Shown: positions 1,195 through 62,554 of the stretch, piece by piece | Layout: each line of letters begins with the position of its first letter | Position numbering within the stretch: position 1 is the first letter of the stretch | From: Candidatus Termititenax sp. | GTDB taxonomy: Bacteria > Margulisbacteria > Riflemargulisbacteria > GWF2-35-9 > DYQY01 | NCBI GenBank assembly: GCA_020719045.1 | Contig: DYQY01000002.1 | Coordinates: forward strand, 6,260 to 70,259 | DNA: 64,000 nucleotides | Reading direction: 5' to 3' | Program-made: the position numbers and the translations under genes | Notes under the pieces: generated by a model | What the model saw: only the letters and a program-made list of their open reading frames with translations | Told to the model about the DNA's origin: nothing | Database searches by the model: none

Positions 1195-1455
1195 ATGTCT
1201 GTTTTACTTATTCAACTTCCCTTCTGGACTAACAAGGATCAAGAATATGCTATTAAATGCATCTCAACCCCCAACCTAGGCATTGGATATCTTACCTCAA
1301 TGCTTCTACAAAGCTGCATAAACACAAAAATTATTGGATTAAGTTGCTGCTTAATGTTATTAGAGTTTACGACCAAATTGCAAACATTTCTGGACATTAC
1401 CGTTCATTTAATTTATATAATTGATAACTCCCTTTATCTCCATAATATTTATTGA
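1195..1455 (+). pseudogene. Remnant of a B12-binding radical SAM protein N-terminus
   Basis: The first 40 residues of this 86-residue frame (SVLLIQLPFW, then TPNLGIGYLTSMLLQ) match the start of cobalamin-binding domains of B12-dependent radical SAM enzymes. KIIGLSC also resembles the next beta strand, but the segments between are missing and the rest drifts into non-homologous sequence. No CxxxCxxC cluster follows. The start has no Shine-Dalgarno; TATTAT with an upstream TG lies 8 nt before the ATG. I read it as a decayed or internally deleted gene. The same type of domain, intact, is found in the 1223-aa fusion protein at 46-50 kb. A real 86-aa protein is possible but less likely. Confidence 0.5.
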
Positions 1456-11073: not shown

Positions 11074-13796
11074 ATGAACATATTACGCTCTATAAGTATT
11101 CTTATGCTTTTACTTTCCTCATCTCTATTTGCAACAGTTAATATGACTGGAGTAATAGACAAAGGAAATCACAGTTTTATTATAAAAAGCAATGGAAGCC
11201 TCTATGCTGTTGGTGAAAACACAGAGGGCTATATGGGAACAGGGACTACCTCCACGAGAAACACCTATAGTTACATCCTAAGTAGTGTAAATACCAGCAT
11301 TTCACCAAATGCTGTGCTTGCAACAGGCTATACTCATAGTTTGCTTCTCAAATCAGGGCAACTTTGGGGAACTGGATATAATGGAACAGGACAACTTGGA
11401 ATTAATGACGATGCTAATCGCTCTGTTTGGACTACTATGCCAGAAGCAGTTGTTACTTTAGCTGCAGGAACATATCACGGTTTTGCAATTAAAAACGACG
11501 GAACGTTACTTGCAACTGGCTATAACGGAGTTGGTCAGCTTGGAACCAGCTCAAACACCAACATATTTGCTTGGACAACAGTTCTTACTACCACCAACGC
11601 TGTTGTTGCAGGTGATGGGTTCAGCCTAGCACTTAGAAACGATGGCTCAGTTTGGGCTACAGGATACAATGCTAATGGCCAACTTGGAAACGGAACCAGC
11701 AGTAATAGCCTATCTTGGATACAAGTAATCACGCAGGATGTAGTGCAAATAATGGCTGGACATAGCCACAGTCTAGCACTTAAAAGTGATGGCACTTTGT
11801 GGACCACTGGATACAATGCTAACGGTCAACTTGGACTAGGAGATATAACTGATAGATACAGTTGGACTAAAGTTCTTACTGCAAGCGTTTCGTCACTAAT
11901 GGCAGGTGACCACTTTTCTTTCTTCATAACCACAACTGGTGATTTATGGGGAACAGGACAGAACCTTGATGGTCAGCTTGGAATAAACTCCAGTCAAGAT
12001 GCCCTACTCTGGAAACTAATCACAGGGAATGTCCAAAGCGTAGGCGCGCAGGCTCTAAACATAGTCATATAATTAAAAATAATAACACCCTATGGGCTAG
12101 CGGAAGAAACGTTGAGAGACAACTCGGGCTAGCTTCTTTATCAAATTACTATGTTTGGAACCGTGTTCCAACCCTCAACAACCAACCTACCTGCAATGCT
12201 GGAGTTAGTGTTTCTATCCATGCTGGCACTCAAGTAACACTTACAGGATATTACTATGACACAGATGATGATGTACTATCACTGAATTGGAGAATTCTTA
12301 GCAAGCCAGCTGGTAGCACCTTAACTACAAATCTATCTACACAAAGCATCTGCCAATTCACTCCAGATTTAGTTGGAACTTATAACTTACAATTTACAGT
12401 CTCAGACTCACTTACTTCTGTATTAAGTACTGTTTCTGTATTTGCAACCAACACAAGACCAACAGCAAATGCAGGCTCATCTGGAAACTATCCTGTTCTA
12501 ACCTTAGTTCAATTATCAGCACAAAACTCTACAGATAATGAAGGCGACAATCTTCTGTATCGTTGGCAATTAACGTCTAAGCCTTCTGGCAGTGTTCAGA
12601 CTATAAGCACCAGCAATCTCATAACTACCAACCTTTTACTCGACATCATAGGAACATATAATGTATTGCTCATTGTTTCAGATAACTGGAGTCAATCATC
12701 AGCATCAATAACGATTGTAGCTCGTGCAGTGTTTGATCCAATAGCGCCCACCTACTCTATAACACTTGCTAACAAATACGTAACCTCTCAAGTAGGCGTA
12801 TCTATAAATTTCAGCGAAAACATGCAATCAAGCCCATTTTCCCTTCGATTACTATATGACAATGGAACCTCAGAAAACATATTAAGCGGTTCATGGATTA
12901 CAACTAAGCTATGGACATCTACCTTTATACCAAGTTCTAGTTGTGGATTTCTTGTAACAGTAATGGTTAATGAAGCAAGAGGAAATGATGGAAACGATGT
13001 AAGTCATGGAAACTCTCTGGTAGGCACATATTCGATAATCCAGTCTCTTTCCAAAACCAACCCACTAACTGGAATAATACTTACGGCAGTAATTCCATCG
13101 ACTGCAGTTACAATAAATGTTGTACCAATAATCAGCTTTGATAACACAATTTCAATAAATATTGCCAACATTCCTTCTTTTGACCGTTTAAGTAATGAAT
13201 ATATCTATAATTTATCGCTATATGATAGCTTCATTTTTTGTCTGCAAAACTCTGGAAACCATATCGGCCTTCCAACTGCAAACATCCAAACTTATGCAGA
13301 ACTAAGCTTCTATCGTTCTGGACTTGGATTAAACAACAAAGTGCGATTATATGCCTATAATCCATCAACTAATCTATGGACTGATATAGGAATAACACTT
13401 AGTTCTACTCAATCAGACCAGATAACATATCGAACTTCTTTACAAACGAAATTTGCGTTAGTTGCAATTGAGACACTAACATCGTCATCAAGCCAACAGC
13501 TACTTATTAACAACCCATTATCAGCACCTAACCCATTTAATCCACTACAAGAAGTTGCTCATATTGGATACTTTATTAATTCGCCAGTGCTAACTAAACT
13601 ATATATTTACAGTATAAATGGATTACTTATCCATACAGCTACAAAGCAAAGTGTGGTTGGCTATAACGAATTCGAATGGGATGGTCGCTCTAGCTTTGGA
13701 TATACCATTGGAAGCGACCTCTATTACGCTTATCTTGTTGCAGAAAACTCTCTTGGAAAAGCGCAAGCAGTTATAAAGATAGTGGTGAAAAAATGA
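11074..13796 (+). pseudogene. Secreted RCC1-repeat / PKD / FlgD-tail protein, interrupted by a frameshift
   Basis: Two frames together encode one protein of about 906 residues. Frame one (11074-12072) has a signal peptide (ISILMLLLSSSLFA) and RCC1-type propeller repeats (GTGYNGTGQLG, ATGYNGVGQLG, ATGYNANGQLG and others). It then stops, while the next RCC1 repeat (HSHIIKNNNTLWASGRN) continues in the other frame, open from about 12063 to 13796. That frame carries two PKD-like Ig domains (RILSKPAGS, TNTRPTANAGS) and a FlgD-like C-terminal Ig domain (YSINGLLIH, NEFEWDGRSSFG), usual in secreted proteins of candidate phyla. Removing one GC from the (GC)3 run at 12044-12049 restores a perfect repeat (SVGAGSKHSHIIK). 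The stop at 13796 overlaps the next start (ATGA). It may be a real mutation, a switch or a sequencing error. Confidence 0.82.
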
Positions 13797-38651: not shown

Positions 38652-40022
38652 ATGACTCAATCTATTATCTGGTTTAATCTAAATAAATATTCAGAACAAT
38701 TCAACAAATACTCCATCAAGCAAAACAGTAGCTATCTTGTTGCTCCAGATTTATTTTACATAGATACTCTTAATGATAAATATATTGTATTTGCACCGCT
38801 GCTTTATAGAGTTTACTATATCCCAAAACAATACATATCAAGCACTACTCCATTAATATTAAATGAAGAGAATTTAGATGAACTAATTAAAGCCAATCTG
38901 TTCTTACCTGAAGATATTATTAATTCGCTCTACCCTACCAAAAAAGACTGCAAAACTTTTAATCCAAACATTAGACTCCTTCTTACAACGGCCTGCAATC
39001 TAAACTGTGTATATTGCTATGCTAACGCTAATAAAACATCTAACTTAATTAGCATAGAGAATCTACAATCATTTATTAACTCTGTTCCATCTAATGTTAA
39101 AGCACTAGAGATTGAGTTTCATGGTGGAGAACCAACTGTTGCGTTTAAGCGAATGCAAGAAACATATAACCTAATAGTTAGCAAATTCCCAGAATCCACT
39201 TTTATGATACAAACGAATGGTGTTTTTAATGATAAAGTTATGGACTGGTTAATATCTAACAACATTAGAATTAACTTTTCAATAGACGGTGATGAAGAAA
39301 CACACAATATCCAACGACCTGCCATTAGCATTAACACTAATAGCTTTAAGGAATTACTTAGAAATATTAAAAAAGCACAAGAAAAAGGAACTGGAACCGC
39401 CTGTATCGTTACGGTAACAGCATTTAACTTAGATAAAATGCAGGATACCTTTAATTTTTTAAAGGAGCATAATTTTAAATACATAAAATTTAATCCATTA
39501 TTTGAAGAAGGACGTGCCCTAGCTGACAGTAAGAGCACAATGTCTTCTCCTAACCTTGAGACATTTGCAAAAAACCTAGCCAAAATAAGCATTGAAGCAT
39601 TTCAAAAAAAAATAATGATAGACTCTGACCTACTACCTAACATTCATACTAAAAAAGCATCATATTACAGATGTGGCGCTGTTTGCAGCCAAATGACCAT
39701 TTGTGCTGATGGCAACATAATTGCTTGTGCTGATGCCTACTATCTAACTGAAGACAAAAATGACAATCCATTCTTTTTCTCGTCAATAAACGAAAACAGT
39801 ATTATCTATAATGAAGGACATCAACAAATACTCAACAACTCTACAGCAGACAACTACCCTATCTGCCAAAAATGTTTTCTAAAATGGCACTGCTCTGGAG
39901 GATGTAAAATTGAAAACTACCTTAAAAACAAAGATATTATGATTCCTGATTCTGTAAGCTGTAATGCAAAACAAATATTCTTAACAGAGTACTTGAAGGA
40001 AATCGGAAGCAACATACTTTAA
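38652..40022 (+). CDS. Radical SAM/SPASM peptide- or protein-modifying enzyme
   Basis: A 456-residue anSME/RiPP-maturase-type enzyme. Residues 1-100 form an N-terminal domain of unknown type. The radical SAM cluster is CNLNCVYC (Cys-115, 119, 122), followed by EFHGGEPTV, MIQTNG and FSIDGDEETHNIQRP. The C-terminal SPASM domain has many Cys (RCGAVCSQMTICADGNIIAC; CQKCFLKWHCSGGC; SCNAK) to hold auxiliary Fe-S clusters. It is homologous to the central part of the 1223-aa fusion at 46-50 kb, sharing the QTNG, DWL/DWI, SIDG and LKWxCxGxC blocks. No small precursor-peptide gene is visible next to it; the 1174-aa protein gene is its convergent neighbour. The substrate is unknown. Confidence 0.88.
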   Translation: MTQSIIWFNLNKYSEQFNKYSIKQNSSYLVAPDLFYIDTLNDKYIVFAPLLYRVYYIPKQYISSTTPLILNEENLDELIKANLFLPEDIINSLYPTKKDCKTFNPNIRLLLTTACNLNCVYCYANANKTSNLISIENLQSFINSVPSNVKALEIEFHGGEPTVAFKRMQETYNLIVSKFPESTFMIQTNGVFNDKVMDWLISNNIRINFSIDGDEETHNIQRPAISINTNSFKELLRNIKKAQEKGTGTACIVTVTAFNLDKMQDTFNFLKEHNFKYIKFNPLFEEGRALADSKSTMSSPNLETFAKNLAKISIEAFQKKIMIDSDLLPNIHTKKASYYRCGAVCSQMTICADGNIIACADAYYLTEDKNDNPFFFSSINENSIIYNEGHQQILNNSTADNYPICQKCFLKWHCSGGCKIENYLKNKDIMIPDSVSCNAKQIFLTEYLKEIGSNIL

Positions 40023-40089: not shown

Positions 40090-43000
40090 TTATGTACTAG
40101 CACCTGCTGCTGGTTGTACTTCTTCATCTTCTTCTCCTGGAAGTTTTGGTTTACCATCATCGCCATTATAACTATGAGTGCTTGAGAAAGACCAATCACT
40201 TACATCTTGTTCATAGTCCAAAATAAGATTCAAAGTGCTTCTGTCACTTGAAGACAAAAGACTGAATGCTCTATAAGAATTAGCGTTTTCATCAGCATAA
40301 TTACTACCATAAGATCTGTTAATAATACCAAAATCTTCCATTGACATGTCTACATGTTGAACAAAGTAACCTGAACCATTACTTCCAATGAATCCTGTTA
40401 TTCCAACTAAGTTATTAAGAGCATCAGCAACTTTATTAGACATTAAACCTTGATTATCGGCTAAATAATTACTCATTGATGAACTATGACCTATCGCAGA
40501 AAGAAGAGATCCTTCTTCACCTTGAGAGATAAAAACTACCCTCTTAATATTGTTATAGTATGCAGGTCCATCAGTAGCATTTAAATCAAATCCAATAACT
40601 CCGGATAATGCTTTACTAACTAATGTATCAGCTAACTCTGGTTTCTGATCTTCAAGAGCTGCTTGATACAGATACTCAGCTGCAACAACAATAGAATCAA
40701 CATTCAATAGGAAATCGCTATTATCAGTAACTCCAAACGCTGCTAAACTTTCACCCTTATCAAGATTAACACTAGCAGCAGCAATAACTGCTTGTGCTTG
40801 TATTTGACCAAGAGCATTATCTAAATCATTAATGTTCCCTCTGGAAGCAGCTACAACTGCTTCTCTTAAGTAAGCCTGGACTAAACCGTCACCAGCAAGT
40901 GCTTTTTCTTGAAGTGAAGTAAACAAACTTTCTGCAGAAACATTATCTATAAGCTCAATAAGAGTATTTATCTCTTTAAAATCACTAGCTGGAATAGTTG
41001 TCTGATGTATCATGAATGTTGCTATGTCCGCAAAAACTCTTTGTGTATCAGCGCCCCAATTATTCTCAAATCCTTTAGCTATAAATGACATTGCATTTAT
41101 ATCTGGATACATCTGAAATACCATGTCTGTAAATCTGCTAGTTTTTGCTTCACTTGGATTACTTACCAACAACTTAACAAGAGAATCAGCTAAATCTTGA
41201 GACCTTGGCTTTCCTTGTTGGAAATAAACCTGTAAAGCATCATTAAACTCAGCTGGGTCTGAAACCTGATAGTAAAGAGATGCTATCGAATCTGAACCCA
41301 CATATTCAATTAATGTATCAATAGCTAATGATAATGAATCTGCGTTCATGTTATTAAACAAACTAACTAATCTACTATCTACGCCACTATCTGCTGATAT
41401 GCCTAGTCTCATAAAAACTTGAAACATTCCTTCTTTATCAACAGCTATTTGTGATAATAATGGTGCAAACTTCTCTACACTTATATTTCCGGACAAGTAA
41501 CCATCAATCATATTATCAGCAATAACACTATTCATTTCTCCAGGATTATCTATAAAAAACTGAGCAAAATTATCATTATATGTATTTGGATTATCAATAT
41601 CTATTGATAAGTTTAGCGATAAGTAGTTACGTAATGCATCATTGATTCTTCCAGTTAAAGCTGTAACTCTTGATGTGTTTTGACTATCTGCACCAGTTAC
41701 TGAGGTATAACCTTCTACATAAGCAGCTTGGTCCCCTACTTGACCAGTTATTTGGTAATTCTGTGCTGAACCTGCTCTATGAATATCTTGATTAATATAA
41801 GCAGTAGGCCCATCTATCACACCAGCAACACCAGAAGCATTATATGTTCCATTTTCAGTGGCACTACCCATAAATACACCAGTTTGCATTTCAACATTCT
41901 GAGCTAAATCTTCTTGATGAACTAAAGTCCTATTACTATAATCTTCTCCGAGTAATTCCATCTCGTTATTTGTGCTAGCTTTTAATGCAGATAAATCACC
42001 ACTAGCCTCTTCAAAGAAAATCATTGCAACAGGGTCACAGTTTCTACACTTAGCATCATAAAAAGAAGAATGCGTTGCAACAGTAGTACTCACAAGAGCA
42101 GTTTGAGCAAAACGTTCAGTACCAAATAATAACTGAAAATCATCATTAGTTCCAGAATTAATCTTCGTATACTCTACACCAGTGGCAGTGTCAGCTCCTG
42201 TTACGTTTACTGTAAGACCTCCACCAGCTAGTAAATCTACTACCCTTGCTACTGTAACTGCATTACCATTAGCATCAACTACGCCTAATCCAGTTACATC
42301 TACAGTTAATGAACTTATGTCATCAGCTCCACCACCATATGTTTTATATGTTCCTGAAGTATTAACACCAGGATGTGCAGAAGTGATACGGTTATAAACT
42401 TCTTGTGGTACATAAAAATATCCATTACTATTTTGCTCACTAGATGATGCTCTATTTGTAGTTATATGAAAATTATGCCATCTGCCAGCCGCAGAACCAA
42501 CCACCCAACTATTAGTTGTTGAAGCTCTATTAATAACTCTTGTTTCTGAATCCCCCTTAATCTCTACTGTTGCATTCTTTAATGCAGTAACAAAATCATT
42601 AACAGCCTCACCTTGATACATTGCATTTTGATTATAGGTTCCATCACCATTATCAGCATCTATCATTGCTGCAGCCATACCTGCTATCCATGTTGCATCA
42701 TATGTTGTTCCAGCCCAATCTAATTTAGCATTATCTCCTTCTGAAGCAAGCCAGTTCTGTAATTGATAACCGTATGCCAAGCTTCTTGAGGATTCAACAC
42801 CGATAGTAGTATTTGTATCAACACTCAACTCTCCACTAGTTGATTTAATAGTATCAGATTGAAACACATGGACTTCTACCCCACCTGCAAGATTTTCAGC
42901 TGTATCCTTTGAAACTGCATCAGTAATATTAACGTTGTATACAAGATCTGCATCTACTGTACTATCAATATCAAATTTAATGTTAATAACCCCATTATTT

Positions 43001-43614
43001 AATCCATTTACGTCATTTTGCTCAAAATTAGAAGTGCCAGTAATATCAATAGTATTCTTAAATCCTTCAGTCACATTGTTATTAAGTAGGACACTATTAT
43101 CAATATCATAATTAAGTAAATATTCACCATTTGCATGTTCACTTTCCCAACCAGTATCATCTAGGGCAACCGATAATGCATTGCTCGCAAAAGTTAACCC
43201 TTCAGACATGGCATCAGAAACTGAAACTGAACCAATGTTTGATACCCCGTGCGCATCAGCAGTGCCTAATATCATCGTATCAATAATTAATCCATCTGTA
43301 TCAGCAACGAAAATTTGAAAATCAGTATCATCACCTGACTGAATACCGTCCAAACCATCTGCATCTTTGATTGTTAAAAGATCAAAATCAATTACAGGTT
43401 TGCCATTAGCTCCAATATCATCAAAATCAAAAACAACCGATTCCCCACCCTCAATATTTATTTCTAACCCAGAATTTACTTTACTTTGAAGAGCCGCATA
43501 ATCTATAGCCCCATTATTATAACAGCCTAACTTTATTGCTAAAGCCTCCATATCGATTACTCTATCTGCTACACTAAAATCTTCCCCAGATCTAAAACTT
43601 ATTGACTCTACCAT
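40090..43614 (-). CDS. Giant acidic protein of unknown function (1174 aa)
   Basis: I do not recognise this protein. It has no signal peptide or membrane segment and is acidic and Asn/Asp/Ser-rich. Residues 50-560 look beta-rich (ESVVFDFDDIG, DITGTSNFEQNDVNGLNNG, SLTVDVTGLGVVDANGN); residues about 700-1000 are an array of helices (FAPLLSQIAVDKEGMFQVFMRLG; DSLVKLLVSNPSEAK); the tail is GEEDEEVQPAAGAST. The only visible cysteines are one near residue 30 and the CRNC pair in the middle. The start has TAAGGGGGG and a structured leader motif. It sits between two SPASM radical SAM genes and could be a substrate, a secreted or surface protein, or a scaffold. Confidence 0.75.
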   Translation of the reverse strand: MVESISFRSGEDFSVADRVIDMEALAIKLGCYNNGAIDYAALQSKVNSGLEINIEGGESVVFDFDDIGANGKPVIDFDLLTIKDADGLDGIQSGDDTDFQIFVADTDGLIIDTMILGTADAHGVSNIGSVSVSDAMSEGLTFASNALSVALDDTGWESEHANGEYLLNYDIDNSVLLNNNVTEGFKNTIDITGTSNFEQNDVNGLNNGVINIKFDIDSTVDADLVYNVNITDAVSKDTAENLAGGVEVHVFQSDTIKSTSGELSVDTNTTIGVESSRSLAYGYQLQNWLASEGDNAKLDWAGTTYDATWIAGMAAAMIDADNGDGTYNQNAMYQGEAVNDFVTALKNATVEIKGDSETRVINRASTTNSWVVGSAAGRWHNFHITTNRASSSEQNSNGYFYVPQEVYNRITSAHPGVNTSGTYKTYGGGADDISSLTVDVTGLGVVDANGNAVTVARVVDLLAGGGLTVNVTGADTATGVEYTKINSGTNDDFQLLFGTERFAQTALVSTTVATHSSFYDAKCRNCDPVAMIFFEEASGDLSALKASTNNEMELLGEDYSNRTLVHQEDLAQNVEMQTGVFMGSATENGTYNASGVAGVIDGPTAYINQDIHRAGSAQNYQITGQVGDQAAYVEGYTSVTGADSQNTSRVTALTGRINDALRNYLSLNLSIDIDNPNTYNDNFAQFFIDNPGEMNSVIADNMIDGYLSGNISVEKFAPLLSQIAVDKEGMFQVFMRLGISADSGVDSRLVSLFNNMNADSLSLAIDTLIEYVGSDSIASLYYQVSDPAEFNDALQVYFQQGKPRSQDLADSLVKLLVSNPSEAKTSRFTDMVFQMYPDINAMSFIAKGFENNWGADTQRVFADIATFMIHQTTIPASDFKEINTLIELIDNVSAESLFTSLQEKALAGDGLVQAYLREAVVAASRGNINDLDNALGQIQAQAVIAAASVNLDKGESLAAFGVTDNSDFLLNVDSIVVAAEYLYQAALEDQKPELADTLVSKALSGVIGFDLNATDGPAYYNNIKRVVFISQGEEGSLLSAIGHSSSMSNYLADNQGLMSNKVADALNNLVGITGFIGSNGSGYFVQHVDMSMEDFGIINRSYGSNYADENANSYRAFSLLSSSDRSTLNLILDYEQDVSDWSFSSTHSYNGDDGKPKLPGEEDEEVQPAAGAST

Positions 43615-45228: not shown

Positions 45229-46056
45229 ATGAATTATATTTGGGATAATATTGATAAACATCTTAGCAAAGATCAAATTAAAAGCTTTTTAAAACTAGAT
45301 GGGATTGATTTAGAAACAGCTGATTTGCTTACCAAAATTAAGTCACGCAAACTATCTTACACTTCACTTAATTTAATAAACAAAAATGACTATATCTTAG
45401 ATATTGCATGTGGGCTTGGAGAAGACTGTATTGAACTCTCCGACTTAACTGGAACAAATGGCAAGATTGTAGGTATCGACATCTCTGAAACTCTTACAAA
45501 AGAAGCAACAAACGTTAGTATAATGCACAGGATAAACAATATATCCTACCAAACTATGGATGCACATGAATTAGATTATACAGACAATATATTTGATGTT
45601 GTCTGCATTAAAAGAAGCCTGCAACATATGGTGAATCCAAAAAAAGTTATTAACGAAGCATTACGCGTACTTAAATCAGGCGGAAAAATCATTGTAATTG
45701 AGCCTGATAGAGGGTCTGCGATTATTAATCATCCTGATAGACAAATGACTAGAATGATTATGACTTATATTGAAGAAGTAGTCAGAAACCCTTGGATTGG
45801 CAGACAACTTAAACAGTTACTCAACACAAATAACACAAGTCAACTTACACTAAACTTCGACATAGACGTATTATCTTCATACGAAACCATAAACAATAAT
45901 TTCGGTTTGGAAAAAGCAACTGCATACCTAATAAACCTTAAACTTATAAGTCACGAACAATCAAACAATTGGCTAAACATATTAAAAGACCTTGATAAAA
46001 CAAACCAACTATTCTGCTCTACTACACAATTTATTGCCACTGGCATTAAAGCTTAA
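45229..46056 (+). CDS. UbiE/class I SAM-dependent methyltransferase
   Basis: A 275-residue methyltransferase. Motif I is ILDIACGLGEDCIELSDLTG, then GIDISETLTKEA, MDAHELDYTDNIFDVVCIKRSLQHMVNPKKVINEALRVLKSGGKIIVIEPDRG, which is the pattern of the UbiE/Methyltransf_11 group acting on small molecules. It is divergent from the ankyrin/methyltransferase pair and convergent (4-nt overlap) with the 1223-aa radical SAM fusion. The substrate is unknown; it could serve the same pathway as its neighbours. Confidence 0.85.
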   Translation: MNYIWDNIDKHLSKDQIKSFLKLDGIDLETADLLTKIKSRKLSYTSLNLINKNDYILDIACGLGEDCIELSDLTGTNGKIVGIDISETLTKEATNVSIMHRINNISYQTMDAHELDYTDNIFDVVCIKRSLQHMVNPKKVINEALRVLKSGGKIIVIEPDRGSAIINHPDRQMTRMIMTYIEEVVRNPWIGRQLKQLLNTNNTSQLTLNFDIDVLSSYETINNNFGLEKATAYLINLKLISHEQSNNWLNILKDLDKTNQLFCSTTQFIATGIKA

Positions 46057-49000
46057 GAGACAATTAGTCTCTCTATGTAGCTATCTAATATCTTAATTTG
46101 CTCTAATTTAAATTTATGGATTCTCTCAGCTGATTCAATAAAATCATTGGTTCCTACTTGTTCTTCTCCAGTGTATTTTTTACGATAAAATTCATTTAAT
46201 TGTTTCTTTAAGTTGTTTGCATTACTACTATATAGTTGCCTAGATGATAAAAAAGAAGAACCTATCTGATTAAAATTTACAATTAATTCATCATACAACT
46301 TCTTTTTAACCTGATACTTATGAGAAATTGCTCTATTCGCCAAGTAATCCTTACTCATTTCATATCCAGTGGATTGAGGTAGATTCTCAAAGAAAAAAAT
46401 CTCCACATGATCAATATTCCAAATATTTCTTTTTATATAATCCAGTGTCATAACTACATCATCCACACCCTCTTCTGGAAGCCCTACAATAAATGAAGCG
46501 TGGATAAAAATGCCTGCCTCCGCAACATTTGCAATAACAGTCTCATTATCATTAATAGTTGTACCTTTATTGACAACATCTAATACATGTTGCGAATTAC
46601 TTTCTATCCCAAAAGACAAATAGACGGCTCCAGCCTCTGCAAGCTTATGGCAAAAATCTTTATCAAAAACACTATCAATTCGAACATATGCACTCCAATA
46701 CATCTTATCTTCATTAGTCAGCTTATTAACAAAATCTTTTAACCAATTAGGGCTTCCGTTAAGCAGCATATCCGTAAAATAAAACAAGTTACACTGATGG
46801 CTCTTCACGTGAAAATTCATCTCAGAAACCACATCTTCTACGCTTTTAAGTCGATATCCATTCCACAATATTTTATGGGAACAAAAAGAACAATTAGAAC
46901 TACACCCACGTGAAGCAAAAATAGGGATAACTTGATGAACAAATTTACCGTCCTCGTAGCCACTTACATAGTTAAGCTTTGAAACGCCCACTTTAATATC
47001 CAATTTATTCTCGTCCTTATATAAAACAAAATCCTCGTTAATATTCTCCCTTGTTATAACTCCTTGGATGTTATTATTGCCATTCACATATGACAACACT
47101 TTCTCTTCTCCCTCTTTCAATATAAGAGCATCACCCATCTCTGCACGTAGAAAATCTTTGTATTTCTCTACCTCCATATAAACATCTGGACCACCGAGAA
47201 ATAAATTATATTTCTTCTTGGGTTTTACATTCTCAAGGAAAACTTTAATAAACTCATAGGTATTATCAAAACTTGAGAGTCCAACAAAAGTATAGTTTTT
47301 ACTGATAAGAACCGCTGACACTCTGGAAATATAAGCATCAATAAAACCTTTAAATCCACTATCTTTTAAATAATTATCACTAAAACAAAATGTCTTCCTC
47401 CACTCATCTTTATGGTTATAGTACATATCCTTATTCAAATCGATAACTTCACATTTTATTCCCTTATTTATCAAGTAATTGGCAAGGTAATTGACTCCAG
47501 GAGGAGGAAGCATTGGAGTAACAGGAGGAAAATGTATCAATGCTACCTTAAGAGATAAAGAACCATGAATATAGCTTTTCAAATACTCGACAATAAAATA
47601 GGTTTTAGCCTCACATCTATCCTTATATACTTTATACATATCACCATTAAGCTCATAGCATTGAAGTAAACAATCACCCGCACAGTTCCATTTAAGCAAA
47701 CAATGCTTACACTCAGGCATGTTCTCTGTAACTCTACACCTAAGCTTTTCTTCATTACCAACATTAATCTTTACTTTAGGCCCAATATTAGCCCAAACAA
47801 AAGGATTATCTGACCCTGCACCTTTATCATAAGCCCTGGTACAAGAACAAACATCACCATTCGCATAAACACCAACACCAGCCTTACAAGCATCACACTG
47901 ATAATTTCTCGGAATATACTGGAAAAAATCAGGCAAAAAATCTGAAACCAAATAAACCCCTTCTTTGTCAGCTTTCATTTTTATCTCAAGGTAATTATTA
48001 ACAAAGGTCATTAAATCAACGTCTCGTTTTGCAGGATGGTCATTCTTTTGCGATCTACCCAAAAATGAATGCACTGGATTCATCATCATTGCTCTTACAC
48101 CTAATAACTTAATAAACTCGTAAATACTCAGCAACTTATCCTGTGAATACTCTGTAATAACAGAAACAGTTGAAACACTCACGCCTTGTTCTATCATCTT
48201 TGAAATATTGGAAGTTATTTTATCAAAAACATCTACCCCATCAGTTCTCTGAACATCGTTTACTTCTTTGTTTCCATCTATAGAAACGCTGACAACAATT
48301 TTCTTTTCAACTATCCAATCAATAATTCCAGCAGGAAACAACCCATTCGTTTGCAACCTAATAGTGCGACTATTCGTTTTACTATCAATATAATCAACTA
48401 TCTTCTTAATTTCGTTAATCATTAAGGTTGGTTCTCCACCACCATGGAATTCAACTTCAATATTATGAAGGTTATCACCGTAAAGTTTTATTAAGTACTC
48501 AATAGCCTGTTCTGCAGATATTTCAGCCTTAATTTCATTACACTCTCCAGAACTTAAGTAACAATACTTACACCTCAAATTACAATTATTGGTCATATGA
48601 AAGCGAACTTTTTTAACAAACCCATTGTGTCTTTCTAAATCATTAGGTGATTGTTTAAAATAAGTCTGACCTCTAGCAACAAGTAAGCCAGCCTTCAAAA
48701 AATGACTTTTATAAAGATCATTAAATTCAATTGGTGAAAAATTCTTAAAATACCTATTAGGAACACCAACCATCCTACCTATTAATGGAAGGAAAAAATA
48801 AACACGCTCATTTCTTTTCTCAATAAAAAAAATATCTTTAACTAACTCTGATTCAACAGAACCACTTACTACAAACTCCTGACTAAACTTACCAAAATGA
48901 GTAATATCTATCCCAGATATTAGTTTCTGAACCTTATTAATAATTCCCTCATATATTTCTTGTGGAATAAATTCCTTTTCCCACCCTGACACAATCGACT

Positions 49001-49724
49001 TTCCTATGTCCTTAAAATACAACTCAGTAACTAAGTCAGCTAAAGACTCACGTCTTTTATATTCAACTTCATTTCCATCTAAAGAAAACCCATTTTGTAT
49101 TAAAATCCTATCAGTAAAATAGTGAGCTAACTCATGAACACCTACAAAGAATATTTCATCAGAAAGATTCTTTACGTTCGGTACAGCTATTGCAAACCCA
49201 TTCCTTCCTGGAAAACCAACAGATTTACCACGTTTTTCAGGCATATTCTTAATAAGCCATATATGTAAATCCTCTTTGTACTCTATCCCAGAAACATATG
49301 AAAGGAACTTAAGTGCATGGATAAATTTCTCAATATTATTACTTTTAAAAGCAGCTAATTCAACTATCACAGTTTCAGAGTCCCAACTATCAACATAACT
49401 CTGATACTCTTTCACTATCCACTCAAAAGAATCCTTTGATACATTATCAAGCTGGTTCTTATAACCTTCAGTATTAGGAAAATTTCTAAAATAGAAGAGC
49501 ATATTCTCTTTTAATGACTTAACCTTATTAATATCCATATAAAACGGAAAATGAGAAACTATCTGCAAATTATTAACAAGGAAATCTCTTAAATCCTGTG
49601 GAATAACGACTTTATGATTATCTACATATTTTTGATTATAAACAGCATATGGCTCACTAACATCTTGTTGAACTAAAATGTGATACCAAAAATTTACAAA
49701 GATATCATAGTTAAGTTGAATCAT
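46053..49724 (-). CDS. Metalloprotease-like + SPASM radical SAM + B12-type radical SAM fusion
   Basis: One chain of 1223 residues joins three enzymes. Residues 1-360: a zinc-protease-like domain with HELAHYFTD (His-197, Glu-198, His-201) and a candidate third ligand Glu-226 in RRESLAD, like gluzincins. Residues 370-720: radical SAM with CNLRCKYC (Cys-381, 385, 388), EFHGGGEPT, RLQTNG, SVSIDGNKEVNDVQR and a Cys-rich SPASM end (CDACKAG; CKHCLLKWNCAGDC). Residues 724-1223: a cobalamin-binding-like domain (VALIHFPPVTPMLPPPGVNYLANYL, LFLGGPDVY, without DxHxxG) and a second radical SAM cluster CSSNCSFC (Cys-941, 945, 948). TAGAAT lies 6 nt before the ATG. I infer a peptide or protein maturation enzyme that may also cleave. 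Confidence 0.9.
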   Translation of the reverse strand: MIQLNYDIFVNFWYHILVQQDVSEPYAVYNQKYVDNHKVVIPQDLRDFLVNNLQIVSHFPFYMDINKVKSLKENMLFYFRNFPNTEGYKNQLDNVSKDSFEWIVKEYQSYVDSWDSETVIVELAAFKSNNIEKFIHALKFLSYVSGIEYKEDLHIWLIKNMPEKRGKSVGFPGRNGFAIAVPNVKNLSDEIFFVGVHELAHYFTDRILIQNGFSLDGNEVEYKRRESLADLVTELYFKDIGKSIVSGWEKEFIPQEIYEGIINKVQKLISGIDITHFGKFSQEFVVSGSVESELVKDIFFIEKRNERVYFFLPLIGRMVGVPNRYFKNFSPIEFNDLYKSHFLKAGLLVARGQTYFKQSPNDLERHNGFVKKVRFHMTNNCNLRCKYCYLSSGECNEIKAEISAEQAIEYLIKLYGDNLHNIEVEFHGGGEPTLMINEIKKIVDYIDSKTNSRTIRLQTNGLFPAGIIDWIVEKKIVVSVSIDGNKEVNDVQRTDGVDVFDKITSNISKMIEQGVSVSTVSVITEYSQDKLLSIYEFIKLLGVRAMMMNPVHSFLGRSQKNDHPAKRDVDLMTFVNNYLEIKMKADKEGVYLVSDFLPDFFQYIPRNYQCDACKAGVGVYANGDVCSCTRAYDKGAGSDNPFVWANIGPKVKINVGNEEKLRCRVTENMPECKHCLLKWNCAGDCLLQCYELNGDMYKVYKDRCEAKTYFIVEYLKSYIHGSLSLKVALIHFPPVTPMLPPPGVNYLANYLINKGIKCEVIDLNKDMYYNHKDEWRKTFCFSDNYLKDSGFKGFIDAYISRVSAVLISKNYTFVGLSSFDNTYEFIKVFLENVKPKKKYNLFLGGPDVYMEVEKYKDFLRAEMGDALILKEGEEKVLSYVNGNNNIQGVITRENINEDFVLYKDENKLDIKVGVSKLNYVSGYEDGKFVHQVIPIFASRGCSSNCSFCSHKILWNGYRLKSVEDVVSEMNFHVKSHQCNLFYFTDMLLNGSPNWLKDFVNKLTNEDKMYWSAYVRIDSVFDKDFCHKLAEAGAVYLSFGIESNSQHVLDVVNKGTTINDNETVIANVAEAGIFIHASFIVGLPEEGVDDVVMTLDYIKRNIWNIDHVEIFFFENLPQSTGYEMSKDYLANRAISHKYQVKKKLYDELIVNFNQIGSSFLSSRQLYSSNANNLKKQLNEFYRKKYTGEEQVGTNDFIESAERIHKFKLEQIKILDSYIERLIVS

Positions 49725-59021: not shown

Positions 59022-59966
59022 TTATCCGTTCATGTCTCGAACAAAGCTTTGAACAGCTGTTGTACTGACATCTCCGCCAACCTTGCCCACAGCTCCAATA
59101 GCCTGCATAGCATCCTTCATTTGTTGAAGTAGTTGCTGAATCAAGAACAACGTACCTGGAGACTCTAAGATAGATTCGTGGTCTGAAAGTTTCACATCTA
59201 TATTATCCATAGATACTTTTCCATCAGGTGCTGTTAAAGTAAATGTCAAACCCTCAACTTTACTTAAGTCTAGATCTGTAAACCCATCATTTTGCTGTAG
59301 TCTAACAGTATCAAAGTCACCTGAAGCTAAAACTGTACCTTTTATATCAGTAATTCCTATTAATTCAGCATTATTTTCTAACATTTCACCAAAAGCAGTT
59401 AAAACAGCTTCAGCCTGAGTATTGTCTAACATACTCTGAACAGATACACCATCAATAGTAATGCCCTTTTCAGCAAGAAGCATAATACCTCTTAATCCAG
59501 TACCATTAGAAAGAACAGTAGACATTGCTAAAATATCCATAAACATTTCATTCATCTGATTAGCAATTGAATAAAGCATTTTACCAAAAAGTGAATTTGC
59601 CCCAAACTGAAACCCTTGAGTTCTTCCATCATCATCCCTTGGAGGCATTGATCTAATAATGTTTTCAAAAGCGGCTGCTTCCTCAGCAGTAATATTGTCA
59701 CCAATATTAATACTTGGATCTAACGATACACTTGACCCTTCCCTCTTAAAACTAATTTTACCATCAGGTGCTAATGTAAAATCAACCCCACCTAATTTAA
59801 AACTCCAACCAGCAAAGCTGTCACCAGAACCTATACCCTGAAAAGATGTTATATCACTATTTGATACCCCTAACATCCCAGCCAACTCTGCTGCCTCAAG
59901 ACCTGCAGCATCACCAGTTTTAGCTGTCCAACCCACATTACTATTTGAACTTACTTCTATACTCAT
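59022..59966 (-). CDS. Unknown acidic protein (314 aa)
   Basis: I do not recognise this 314-residue protein. It lacks a signal peptide. It is Ser/Gly/Asp-rich with beta-like stretches (DSFAGWSFKLGGVDFTLAPDGKISF; VEGLTFTLTAPDGKVSM: APDGK appears twice in similar context, hinting at an internal duplication) and two amphipathic helices (GKMLYSIANQMNEMFMDILAMSTVL; FLIQQLLQQMKDAMQAIGAVG). The ATG has AAGGGGGGAAT and the same leader motif as the 1174-aa gene. It is followed by a strong terminator. Shared control suggests that it works with the giant proteins. Confidence 0.7.
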   Translation of the reverse strand: MSIEVSSNSNVGWTAKTGDAAGLEAAELAGMLGVSNSDITSFQGIGSGDSFAGWSFKLGGVDFTLAPDGKISFKREGSSVSLDPSINIGDNITAEEAAAFENIIRSMPPRDDDGRTQGFQFGANSLFGKMLYSIANQMNEMFMDILAMSTVLSNGTGLRGIMLLAEKGITIDGVSVQSMLDNTQAEAVLTAFGEMLENNAELIGITDIKGTVLASGDFDTVRLQQNDGFTDLDLSKVEGLTFTLTAPDGKVSMDNIDVKLSDHESILESPGTLFLIQQLLQQMKDAMQAIGAVGKVGGDVSTTAVQSFVRDMNG

Positions 59967-60066: not shown

Positions 60067-60756
60067 CTAGAAAAGTTCTTTTGCCTTATCTTCTTTAACA
60101 CTCCCTTTCTGATTATTCTTTACCTCAGCCTTATTCTTATCTTCAAAAGCTTTCATCTTCTCGTATTCTTGAACATCAACTATTGGAAAATTTCTTTTAT
60201 TTAACTGCTCAGCAATAGAAGCACTATGCACTTGAAGCTTTACAAAAAACACGGGATTAATTGTAAACTTATTAGCTTCATACTCAAACAAAATCTCTTG
60301 CGCAACTAAACTTCTAACAATCGCTGTAAAAAAATATCTTTTATAAATCTTAACTTCCCCATTCACTACATCTCCAGCAAACTCATTATAGTAATATAAC
60401 TCCTTAACTTTTGGATCATCTGTGTCCACTAATTCAAACTCATACCTTCCTGTATTAACGTCTGTAGAGAATAAACCATAAGTAACTTTTGCTACATTTT
60501 GTAAATCTGTCTTATCAATTTTAAAATACAAAGTAAGTGTATTTCCATCTTTCTTGTAATATGCATCCTTAAATGTTGATACATCCTTTGGTAAAGTAAG
60601 TTCTGTTTTCTTTTTTATCTCGGATAATTGTTTTCTCTCTTGCAATAAATCTAAAAAAATACTTTCAGACCTATCATCCATATCTGGCAAAGCCTCCACA
60701 TCAAACATATCTTCATTTTCTAAACTATTCTTATTCAACAATGGTAAATTAAACAT
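60067..60756 (-). CDS. Hypothetical protein downstream of the GH8 gene (229 aa)
   Basis: I do not recognise this protein. It is 229 residues, acidic at the start (EDMFDVEALPDMDDRSE) and Lys-rich at the end (KNNQKGSVKEDKAKELF), with a beta-rich middle (TLTLYFKIDKTDLQNVAKVTYGLFSTDVNTGRYEFELVD). No signal peptide is seen. TAAGGGGGGAAT precedes the ATG. It starts 22 nt after the GH8-like gene, so both are one operon, and the 314-aa gene follows after a leader with its own motif. Confidence 0.65.
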   Translation of the reverse strand: MFNLPLLNKNSLENEDMFDVEALPDMDDRSESIFLDLLQERKQLSEIKKKTELTLPKDVSTFKDAYYKKDGNTLTLYFKIDKTDLQNVAKVTYGLFSTDVNTGRYEFELVDTDDPKVKELYYYNEFAGDVVNGEVKIYKRYFFTAIVRSLVAQEILFEYEANKFTINPVFFVKLQVHSASIAEQLNKRNFPIVDVQEYEKMKAFEDKNKAEVKNNQKGSVKEDKAKELF

Positions 60757-60778: not shown

Positions 60779-62554
60779 CTATTCCAGTATACCCAAGTGC
60801 TTTGCAATATTTCTACCTTTATTAATAAATAGCTCTAACCCAAACCATGCCCAATTTTGTTTATAATAATCTTTAGGGTTATCTCCCCAATACCCAGCTG
60901 AATGATAACTATCATCTAATTTATCTAACATAGCTCTTTCCATAGGCTTATCCCCTACTGAAGAAAATAGAGCCAAATATACCCCATAAGATGAAGGGTA
61001 TTCATATTGTAGTCCCCTTTCCAATGAGTTATTTCCATCGATTGAATATCCTTTATGTAACCCCCTGTCTTCCTTATATTTATTTTTATAAAATTCATAG
61101 GTTTTATCTTTTAGAAGAGAATCAGACGACAAAGCAGGAACAACTTCTTTAGTCATTGCTAAAAAATACCAAGTTCTAAAAGCATCCCAACCACAAAGAT
61201 AATCATCTATTGAGCCATCTTCTGCCCAAGGCAAGTCCACAAAGTTACCTTTGTTGTCCAACATACACCAGTCAGGCACTAATGCACCATTACCTTTGAA
61301 AACATCACCTTTTTGATTTGAGAGTGTTATACTTTTACTCTTCTTAATATGCTCCAAGCTATCTTTAGCTAACTTCTTCCAATCATGTTCTGGATCTATT
61401 AACGCAAATGCTTCGTATAAAAATGGCATATAATAGGAAACATTGACCCAAGGGTCTCCTTTAGCATTAGATAACAAATGATACTTTTGAATAGATGAGT
61501 CAGACTGTTGAATCAACTTAACATTATCTAACGCAAAATAATCATCAATTGGCTGAATCATAATAGACCTTACTCTGCTCCAATCAAAGTTGGTATTCTC
61601 TCTATTATCAAACACTACTTCCACGGTAAACAAATCATCTCGATACCCATAGTTACGACTATAAATAACTTTCTTACCTGAAGTATCTTCCAATACTACC
61701 TTTAATCCTCTATTCCATTTTGTTTGAAAAGAAATACCCTTTACTTGTGACATGTCAAGTTTCCCAAGATACTTTCCTATTCCATAATAGTCTGTATTGT
61801 AGGTGTCTATACTTAAAAATGAATTTCCATTCTCTTTTTCTATCTTTTTCCCAAACATCCCACCTTTAGAATAACTAAACCATCTATCTGCGGAACCAGC
61901 GTTTTCAAAATCATCTAAAATATTTGTTCCAGCCTTATATACACATTTCCTCCATATATCAGCTACAATATCTTTTGCAATGCCAATATAGTCATATGCA
62001 CCCTCACCACTTCTCCATCTATTGTGTGCCATAATTAGAGCACCTGCGATTAATTCATCACCGTCTGGAGCAACTTCTACTCCATCTCGCCACCCGTTTA
62101 CTTCTTGAGAGTTATCAGGAACATAGATAATACCCCCGATATTTGTATTCATAATGTTAGGAGTAAACCTCCACGCAAAGAGATTATCTTTCTTAACATC
62201 AGGCATCTGTTCCCATCTGCTTTCTGCCCAGTTAAAAACCCTTGGAATATTCTTTCTCATCATATTGTTATAAGACCAAAACCAAACCTTATCAAAAGTT
62301 GCCTTATCATCCATTATTACTGCTCGATATAATACATAAGAAACTGTCTCTGAAAAACTTAGATCCTTGCCATAGCTACCTCGACCTAAATCTTTATAAT
62401 CTAAATCAGCAAGTGGTCGTCCATTTATAGCTATCTTTTGCTTCTTATAATGTTCCCAGCTATTAGATAGAATTTTGTTATAGTCTTTTGCAAATAAAAA
62501 AGACAGCAGAAATATACTACATACAACATAGATTTGTTTCTTGGTTACTTTCAT
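60779..62554 (-). CDS. Exported GH8-like glycoside hydrolase with inserted carbohydrate-binding-like module
   Basis: A 591-residue exported enzyme (signal peptide IYVVCSIFLLSFLFA). The first GH8 part has SFSETVSYVLYRAVIMDDKATFDKVWFW with the candidate acid Glu-69 (the usual SEGxSY appears as SETVSY) and APDGDELIAGALIMAHNRW with the Asp pair at 164/166. Residues about 211-345 are a beta-sandwich-like insert (DDFENAGSADRWFSYSKGG; FALDNVKLIQQ) like a family CBM11/CIA30-type module. The GH8 barrel resumes with NVSYYMPFLYEAFALIDPEHDW and continues to GYWGDNPKDYY. GH8 enzymes cut beta-1,4 glucans, chitosan or xylan. The site is AGAGGGG before the ATG. Confidence 0.75.
   Translation of the reverse strand: MKVTKKQIYVVCSIFLLSFLFAKDYNKILSNSWEHYKKQKIAINGRPLADLDYKDLGRGSYGKDLSFSETVSYVLYRAVIMDDKATFDKVWFWSYNNMMRKNIPRVFNWAESRWEQMPDVKKDNLFAWRFTPNIMNTNIGGIIYVPDNSQEVNGWRDGVEVAPDGDELIAGALIMAHNRWRSGEGAYDYIGIAKDIVADIWRKCVYKAGTNILDDFENAGSADRWFSYSKGGMFGKKIEKENGNSFLSIDTYNTDYYGIGKYLGKLDMSQVKGISFQTKWNRGLKVVLEDTSGKKVIYSRNYGYRDDLFTVEVVFDNRENTNFDWSRVRSIMIQPIDDYFALDNVKLIQQSDSSIQKYHLLSNAKGDPWVNVSYYMPFLYEAFALIDPEHDWKKLAKDSLEHIKKSKSITLSNQKGDVFKGNGALVPDWCMLDNKGNFVDLPWAEDGSIDDYLCGWDAFRTWYFLAMTKEVVPALSSDSLLKDKTYEFYKNKYKEDRGLHKGYSIDGNNSLERGLQYEYPSSYGVYLALFSSVGDKPMERAMLDKLDDSYHSAGYWGDNPKDYYKQNWAWFGLELFINKGRNIAKHLGILE

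Follow-up and report, generated by a model that had tools for sequence, protein, structure and literature searches.

A three-part HExxH, SPASM and B12-type radical SAM protein within an optional gene cassette of a marine margulisbacterial lineage

The window analysed here, by which we mean the whole 64,000-nucleotide stretch of DNA, comes from a 1.75 Mb genome (G000; 99% complete) of Candidatus Marinamargulisbacteria, a marine and barely studied lineage. A single intact open reading frame of 1223 codons, P0001, occupies window positions 46053–49724 on the minus strand and is surrounded by a cassette of further genes. These encode P0002, a stand-alone SPASM radical SAM enzyme (38652–40022, plus strand); P0006, a protein of 1174 residues (40090–43614, minus strand); two SAM-dependent methyltransferases, P0004 (43713–44474, minus strand) and P0003 (45229–46056, plus strand); and the ankyrin-repeat protein P0005 (44461–45126, minus strand), the last three being assigned by Pfam. 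Beyond P0001 lies the gene for a giant neighbour, the 2995-residue P0007 (49784–58771, minus strand). The initial annotation was confined to P0001, and it missed both the cassette and the candidate target encoded at 40090–43614. Elsewhere in the window, a gene for an RCC1-like repeat protein (11074–12072, plus strand) is followed by a frame that has no ATG start (12666–13796, plus strand), and the two are perhaps one frameshifted gene. Comparisons were made with a second species of the same genus (G001), with a member of a different family within the same order (G005, contig CAIUCY010000106.1) and with G002, which is a congener and sibling species of G005, as well as with further genomes introduced below.

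P0001 combines an HExxH domain, an RRE-like domain, a SPASM radical SAM part and a B12-type radical SAM part, and its motifs at residues 197, 381 and 941 bear out the three-part architecture that had been proposed from the letters of the frame. The HExxH domain (about residues 118–270; 48915–49373, minus strand, as are all parts of the gene) contains HELAH at residue 197, giving H197-E198-x-x-H201, with E226 located inside the string RRESLAD. It is followed by a proposed RRE-like, or peptide-recognition, domain (about residues 271–370; 48615–48914) and by the SPASM radical SAM part (about residues 371–725; 47550–48614), in which the cluster motif CNLRCKYC at 381 provides C381, C385 and C388. 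We took a SPASM domain to require CX9-15GX4C, CX2CX5CX3C and a final cysteine after the radical SAM core, and P0001 has the complete set: C613-X9-G623-X4-C628, the CX2CX5CX3C motif at 672–685 (C672-C675-C681-C685) and the final C704. SPASM family models align over residues 362–707, placing this part among the SPASM proteins, and the closest solved structure is that of CteB (PDB 5wgg; E 2.4e-21, residues 346–707). The best NCBIfam match is PapB (NF047865; E 2e-35), and so it is for P0002 (E 2.6e-37), although at 122.6 and 128.8 bits against a curated cut-off of 340 both proteins fall outside the PapB family.

The remainder of the chain holds a B12-binding-like domain and a second radical SAM core (about residues 726–1110; 46395–47549), whose motif CSSNCSFC at 941 provides C941, C945 and C948. 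Pfam model PF04055 (Radical_SAM) matches P0001 in two stretches (E 2e-30; 106.5 bits against a cut-off of 29.5), such that P0001 belongs to the radical SAM superfamily through two sites, at 381 and 941. The B12-binding model PF02310 has a cut-off of 32.1 bits; P0001 falls below this with 24.6 bits, and the stand-alone orthologue P0009 passes it with 36.5. With a B12-binding domain ahead of the core, the second half of P0001 fits the cobalamin-binding radical SAM enzymes, and cobalamin binding is predicted; among solved structures, OxsB matches this half. We note that an 86-residue frame at 1195–1455 (plus strand) of the window resembles the opening residues of a radical SAM protein of the B12-binding kind and is apparently a remnant.

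The P0001 fusion is genuine. In G001, the match to P0001 residues 1–599 closes one contig, and a second contig opens with the remainder, from the match to residue 545 onwards; the two contig ends share an exact 127-bp overlap, which yields one chain of 1247 residues with the frame continuous across both domain junctions. In G005 the HExxH and SPASM parts (678 residues) and the B12-type radical SAM part (470 residues) are two separate genes, and this is the one observation that would favour an assembly error having joined distinct genes into the long frame, as the initial annotation had allowed. However, the G005 genes adjoin and overlap, G001 independently carries the single chain and the P0001 gene shows no break in composition along its length; we therefore reject such a join, the probability of which is practically negligible. 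Identity between the window protein and that of G001 is 61% in the HExxH domain, 43% in the region before it and 74–76% over the SPASM part and both radical SAM cores, while the G005 protein is about 24% identical over the HExxH region. A fourth copy, in G003, is decayed: it has no HExxH motif (H197 and E198 are lost), no CxxxCxxC, no SPASM cysteines and no B12-type radical SAM part.

A search with an alignment of the HExxH and RRE-like domains found the HExxH domain or its remnant in only four of 74 genomes of the phylum (G000, G001, G003 and G005), all remaining matches being to the shared RRE-like part alone. Scans of 84,980 species genomes, which were built on a few short patterns, returned no match to the whole of P0001 and only the G005 record with the HExxH-RRE alignment. 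A search of viral contigs, plasmids and phages recovered no relative.

Homologues of P0002 through P0007 are all present in the matching stretches of G001, in the same order, and of G005, where they are rearranged. In G005 the cassette lies between the P0007 homologue and trpS, and in G002 trpS follows the P0007 homologue after 48 bp; the block is therefore optional, with G002 preserving an empty site. P0007 itself is also present, within the order, in relatives that lack the cassette, the empty-site genome included. In another relative, G006 (86% complete), the ankyrin and SPASM genes are found close to trpS, where the contig ends, and neither P0006 nor P0001 nor P0007 is present. A different G006 contig, C3, was considered as the missing half of this cassette and rejected, being a separate gene cluster. 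It encodes (L041, 1–7982) a YcaO-like protein, two B12-type radical SAM proteins and a methyltransferase, all named by eye, beside a protein of at least 801 residues, and is possibly a second case in the same lineage of a giant protein accompanied by enzymes that modify peptides.

In both the window and G003, P0007 is preceded by genes for a family-8 glycosyl hydrolase (60779–62554, minus strand) and two uncharacterised proteins (60067–60756 and 59022–59966, both minus strand), and in G002 the P0007 homologue likewise comes after genes for the hydrolase and for the first of these uncharacterised proteins. This looks like a conserved locus. In G004 a protein of 1206 residues (L061, 1326–4946, minus strand) follows the P0007 homologue, in the place of P0006, on a contig with no radical SAM gene; the same genome has 52 ankyrin-repeat matches, a marked expansion.

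P0001 and P0002 are related beyond their radical SAM cores. Residues 272–718 of P0001 align end to end with P0002, including the domain ahead of the core that is the N-terminus of P0002, and the two are therefore paralogues. This common domain matched none of the RRE models and is predicted, with low confidence, to form beta strands and a helix; it appears to sit where SPASM maturases carry a recognition element. A short precursor-peptide gene was sought in the gaps of the cassette, and the only ATG frame of at least 20 codons encodes 20 residues with no cysteine.

The nature of the HExxH domain bears directly on what P0001 may do. The three intact orthologues all keep H197, E198, H201 and E226, along with the basic residues R165, K167 and R225. 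The initial annotation called for a peptidase profile search, and here the outcome was negative: the domain matches no curated Pfam or NCBIfam family above cut-off, and we rejected its assignment by sequence to a known peptidase family. PF06114 (ImmA/IrrE) has no match in G000 or G005, nor to the HExxH domain, and a profile comparison with ImmA/IrrE is local only, extending over 35 columns at the HExxH helix. The sole weak match is to PF18818 (Zincin-like metallopeptidase) in G001, below cut-off at E 0.018–0.075.

Structure predictions gave divergent results. A model of 372 residues (mean pLDDT 56, rising to 80–88 around the HExxH motif) matches mostly gluzincin peptidases, including ERAP1 (Z 9.9), the lanthipeptide peptidase EryP (Z 9.3), selecase (Z 7.8) and IrrE (Z 7.3), and also the ChlB HExxH domain 8s5f (Z 6.5, 141 aligned residues, rmsd 4.5). 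A 174-residue model of the HExxH domain alone has a higher mean pLDDT of 74 and shows no zincin match above Z 3.5, with 8s5f not listed. Foldseek searches with both models returned no match with E below 0.001. The domain is thus gluzincin-like by motif, with an HExxH followed by a downstream glutamate, and in one of two structure predictions. That it acts as a peptidase seems to us a close call that falls slightly short of even, and the machine suggested in the initial annotation, which would modify a substrate and afterwards cleave it, is a possibility.

A hydroxylase is the principal alternative to a peptidase. In a characterised fusion of a radical SAM enzyme with an HExxH domain, the latter had been annotated as a metallopeptidase and turned out to be an alpha-ketoglutarate hydroxylase, although peptide-bond hydrolysis is still within the reach of a related enzyme (PMC12636437). 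By analogy with ChlB, the P0001 domain could be an iron/alpha-ketoglutarate hydroxylase that modifies a residue of the target site (for example Asp527 or Pro528 of P0006, see below) with no cleavage. The known fusions of this kind hydroxylate the beta carbons of Asp and His (PMC12636437), 8s5f is among the fold matches, the invariant R165, K167 and R225 would be in keeping with such a role, and oxygen respiration has been predicted for a marine relative (PMC6349859). However, the TIGR04267 model of alpha-ketoglutarate HExxH peptide hydroxylases has no match to the domain at E up to 10 and none in G000, G001 or G005; the P0001 domain is N-terminal, whereas in ChlB the HExxH match falls within chain residues 525–718; and the spacing of HExxH, 24 residues and ExxAD resembles that of gluzincin peptidases, judging from the motif. 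We regard hydroxylation as unlikely. Very unlikely, in our estimation, is a catalytically dead HExxH part that serves only in binding, which would reduce P0001 to a two-enzyme radical fusion. The lack of a family match, the contradiction between the two fold models and the lower identity of the HExxH domain and the region preceding it relative to the radical SAM cores are all consistent with loss of activity, but H197, E198, H201 and E226 remain invariant in the intact orthologues at identities down to 24%, and G003, the only genome in which HExxH has disappeared, has lost the radical cluster as well.

P0006 is the candidate target. Its homologues occur in three of 55 genomes, G000, G001 and G005, which are those with the intact enzyme, and it is absent from G003, where the enzyme is decayed; because there are only three genomes with the full set and the cassette genes are linked, this co-occurrence is partly expected. 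Three homologues are 25–48% identical to P0006. The best-conserved stretch of the alignment is CRNCDPVAMI, where eight of 10 columns are invariant, as compared to five or fewer in windows away from the motif, and only two cysteines are aligned in all three homologues, both of them in this motif. Within it, the invariant site C-R-[NM]-C-D-P-V-A corresponds to CRNCDPVA at residues 523–530 of P0006 (42025–42048, minus strand), and C523-RNC-D527, the proposed modification site, has CX3D spacing. At the DNA level the CxxCDPVA pattern is found once each in G000, G001 and G005 and not in G002, G003, G004, G006 or G007, and a reversed-pattern control gave no hits. It could be argued that P0007 or an unlinked peptide is the true target and that P0006 merely travels with the cassette, given that in G000 and G001 the gene immediately upstream of P0001 is that for P0007, which precedes the decayed homologue in G003 in the same way, and that linked genes co-occur anyway. 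The presence of P0007, and not of P0006, in relatives without the cassette argues against this, as does the confinement of the shared cysteines of P0006 to the motif, and we consider another target improbable, with about the same weight as the hydroxylase.

Our preferred explanation, held tentatively and a little short of even confidence, places P0001, as a true three-part enzyme, in the middle of an optional maturation cassette that introduces a cross-link, and perhaps a C-methyl group, at the CRNCD site of P0006. Both the target and the chemistry are what we infer from these comparisons. The RRE-like domains of P0001 and P0002 would hold P0006, and the SPASM centres may form a thioether, or a related radical link, from a cysteine of CRNCD to Asp527. 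PapB makes Cys-to-Asp links in CX3D sites and tolerates spacings from X0 to X6 (PMC9413430); PapB-like thioether formation at CRNCD is proposed by analogy, since the PapB scores of both enzymes lie far below the cut-off. The B12-type radical SAM part could then add a C-methyl group or make some other radical change near the CRNCD site, the two methyltransferases might carry out additional methylation, and the HExxH part, if it forms a zincin-like metal site, would trim the modified protein. In this maturation scheme the target would be a giant protein rather than a short peptide. Several points count against it: the low PapB scores; the linkage of the cassette genes in the only three genomes with the full set; the short precursors on which known radical SAM peptide maturases act; the 174-residue fold model, which has the higher mean confidence and lacks a zincin match above Z 3.5; and G006, which keeps two cassette genes at a contig end in the absence of P0006, P0001 and P0007. 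Somewhat more doubtful is the stronger proposition of a portable cassette, in which a three-centre polypeptide, a second SPASM enzyme and two methyltransferases rewrite one lone CRxCDPVA site within a protein whose length exceeds 1100 residues.

Most of what is known about radical SAM maturases concerns short peptides and precursors, and if the proposed explanation is correct, radical peptide chemistry is here applied to a giant protein. With the enzymes come an invariant site in the candidate target, an empty site in a sibling genome and a decayed enzyme in another genome, which together render the target, the chemistry and the order of steps testable. A chain with three centres would also offer a natural example of radical and metal chemistry linked by channelling.

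Parallels with known systems can be drawn for each part. RiPP gene clusters differ from the cassette, whose gaps yielded no short precursor peptide gene beside the maturases. CteB, a SCIFF thioether-forming SPASM enzyme, is the best solved relative of the SPASM part but is a stand-alone enzyme from a short-peptide system. PapB, which tops the NCBIfam matches of P0001 and P0002 alike, forms Cys-to-Asp thioethers in CX3D, such as CRNCD offers, but the scores are far below the cut-off, the PapB substrate is a short peptide with six sites, and no HExxH or B12 part is given for PapB in PMC9413430. The cobalamin-dependent radical SAM enzymes (the PhpK, BchE and HpnJ models; OxsB, PDB 5ul2) share the B12-binding-like domain ahead of the second core, whereas in P0001 this part is fused behind a SPASM enzyme and has no family-level match. 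Gluzincin peptidases (selecase, IrrE and M1 aminopeptidases) have an HExxH helix followed by a Glu helix, an arrangement matched by one model of the P0001 domain with Z of 7 to 10, but no peptidase family model matches and the second model does not reproduce the likeness. The initial annotation knew of no described enzyme with this order of parts. An N-terminal HExxH domain and an HExxH, SPASM and B12-type radical SAM chain were indeed not found in the open papers searched, which are a part of the literature; however, fusions of radical SAM and HExxH domains have been described, namely ChlB (Morishita 2024, as cited in PMC12636437 and PMC13060819). Like P0001, the ChlB-type fusions (PDB 8s5f and 9gm3) combine, in one chain, a radical SAM part of the peptide-modifying kind with an HExxH domain; the zincin-like fold of the latter is shared with one of the two P0001 models. 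P0001 differs from them in having its HExxH domain at the N-terminus, with no TIGR04267 match, in the B12-type radical SAM part that follows, and in its likely target, a giant protein.
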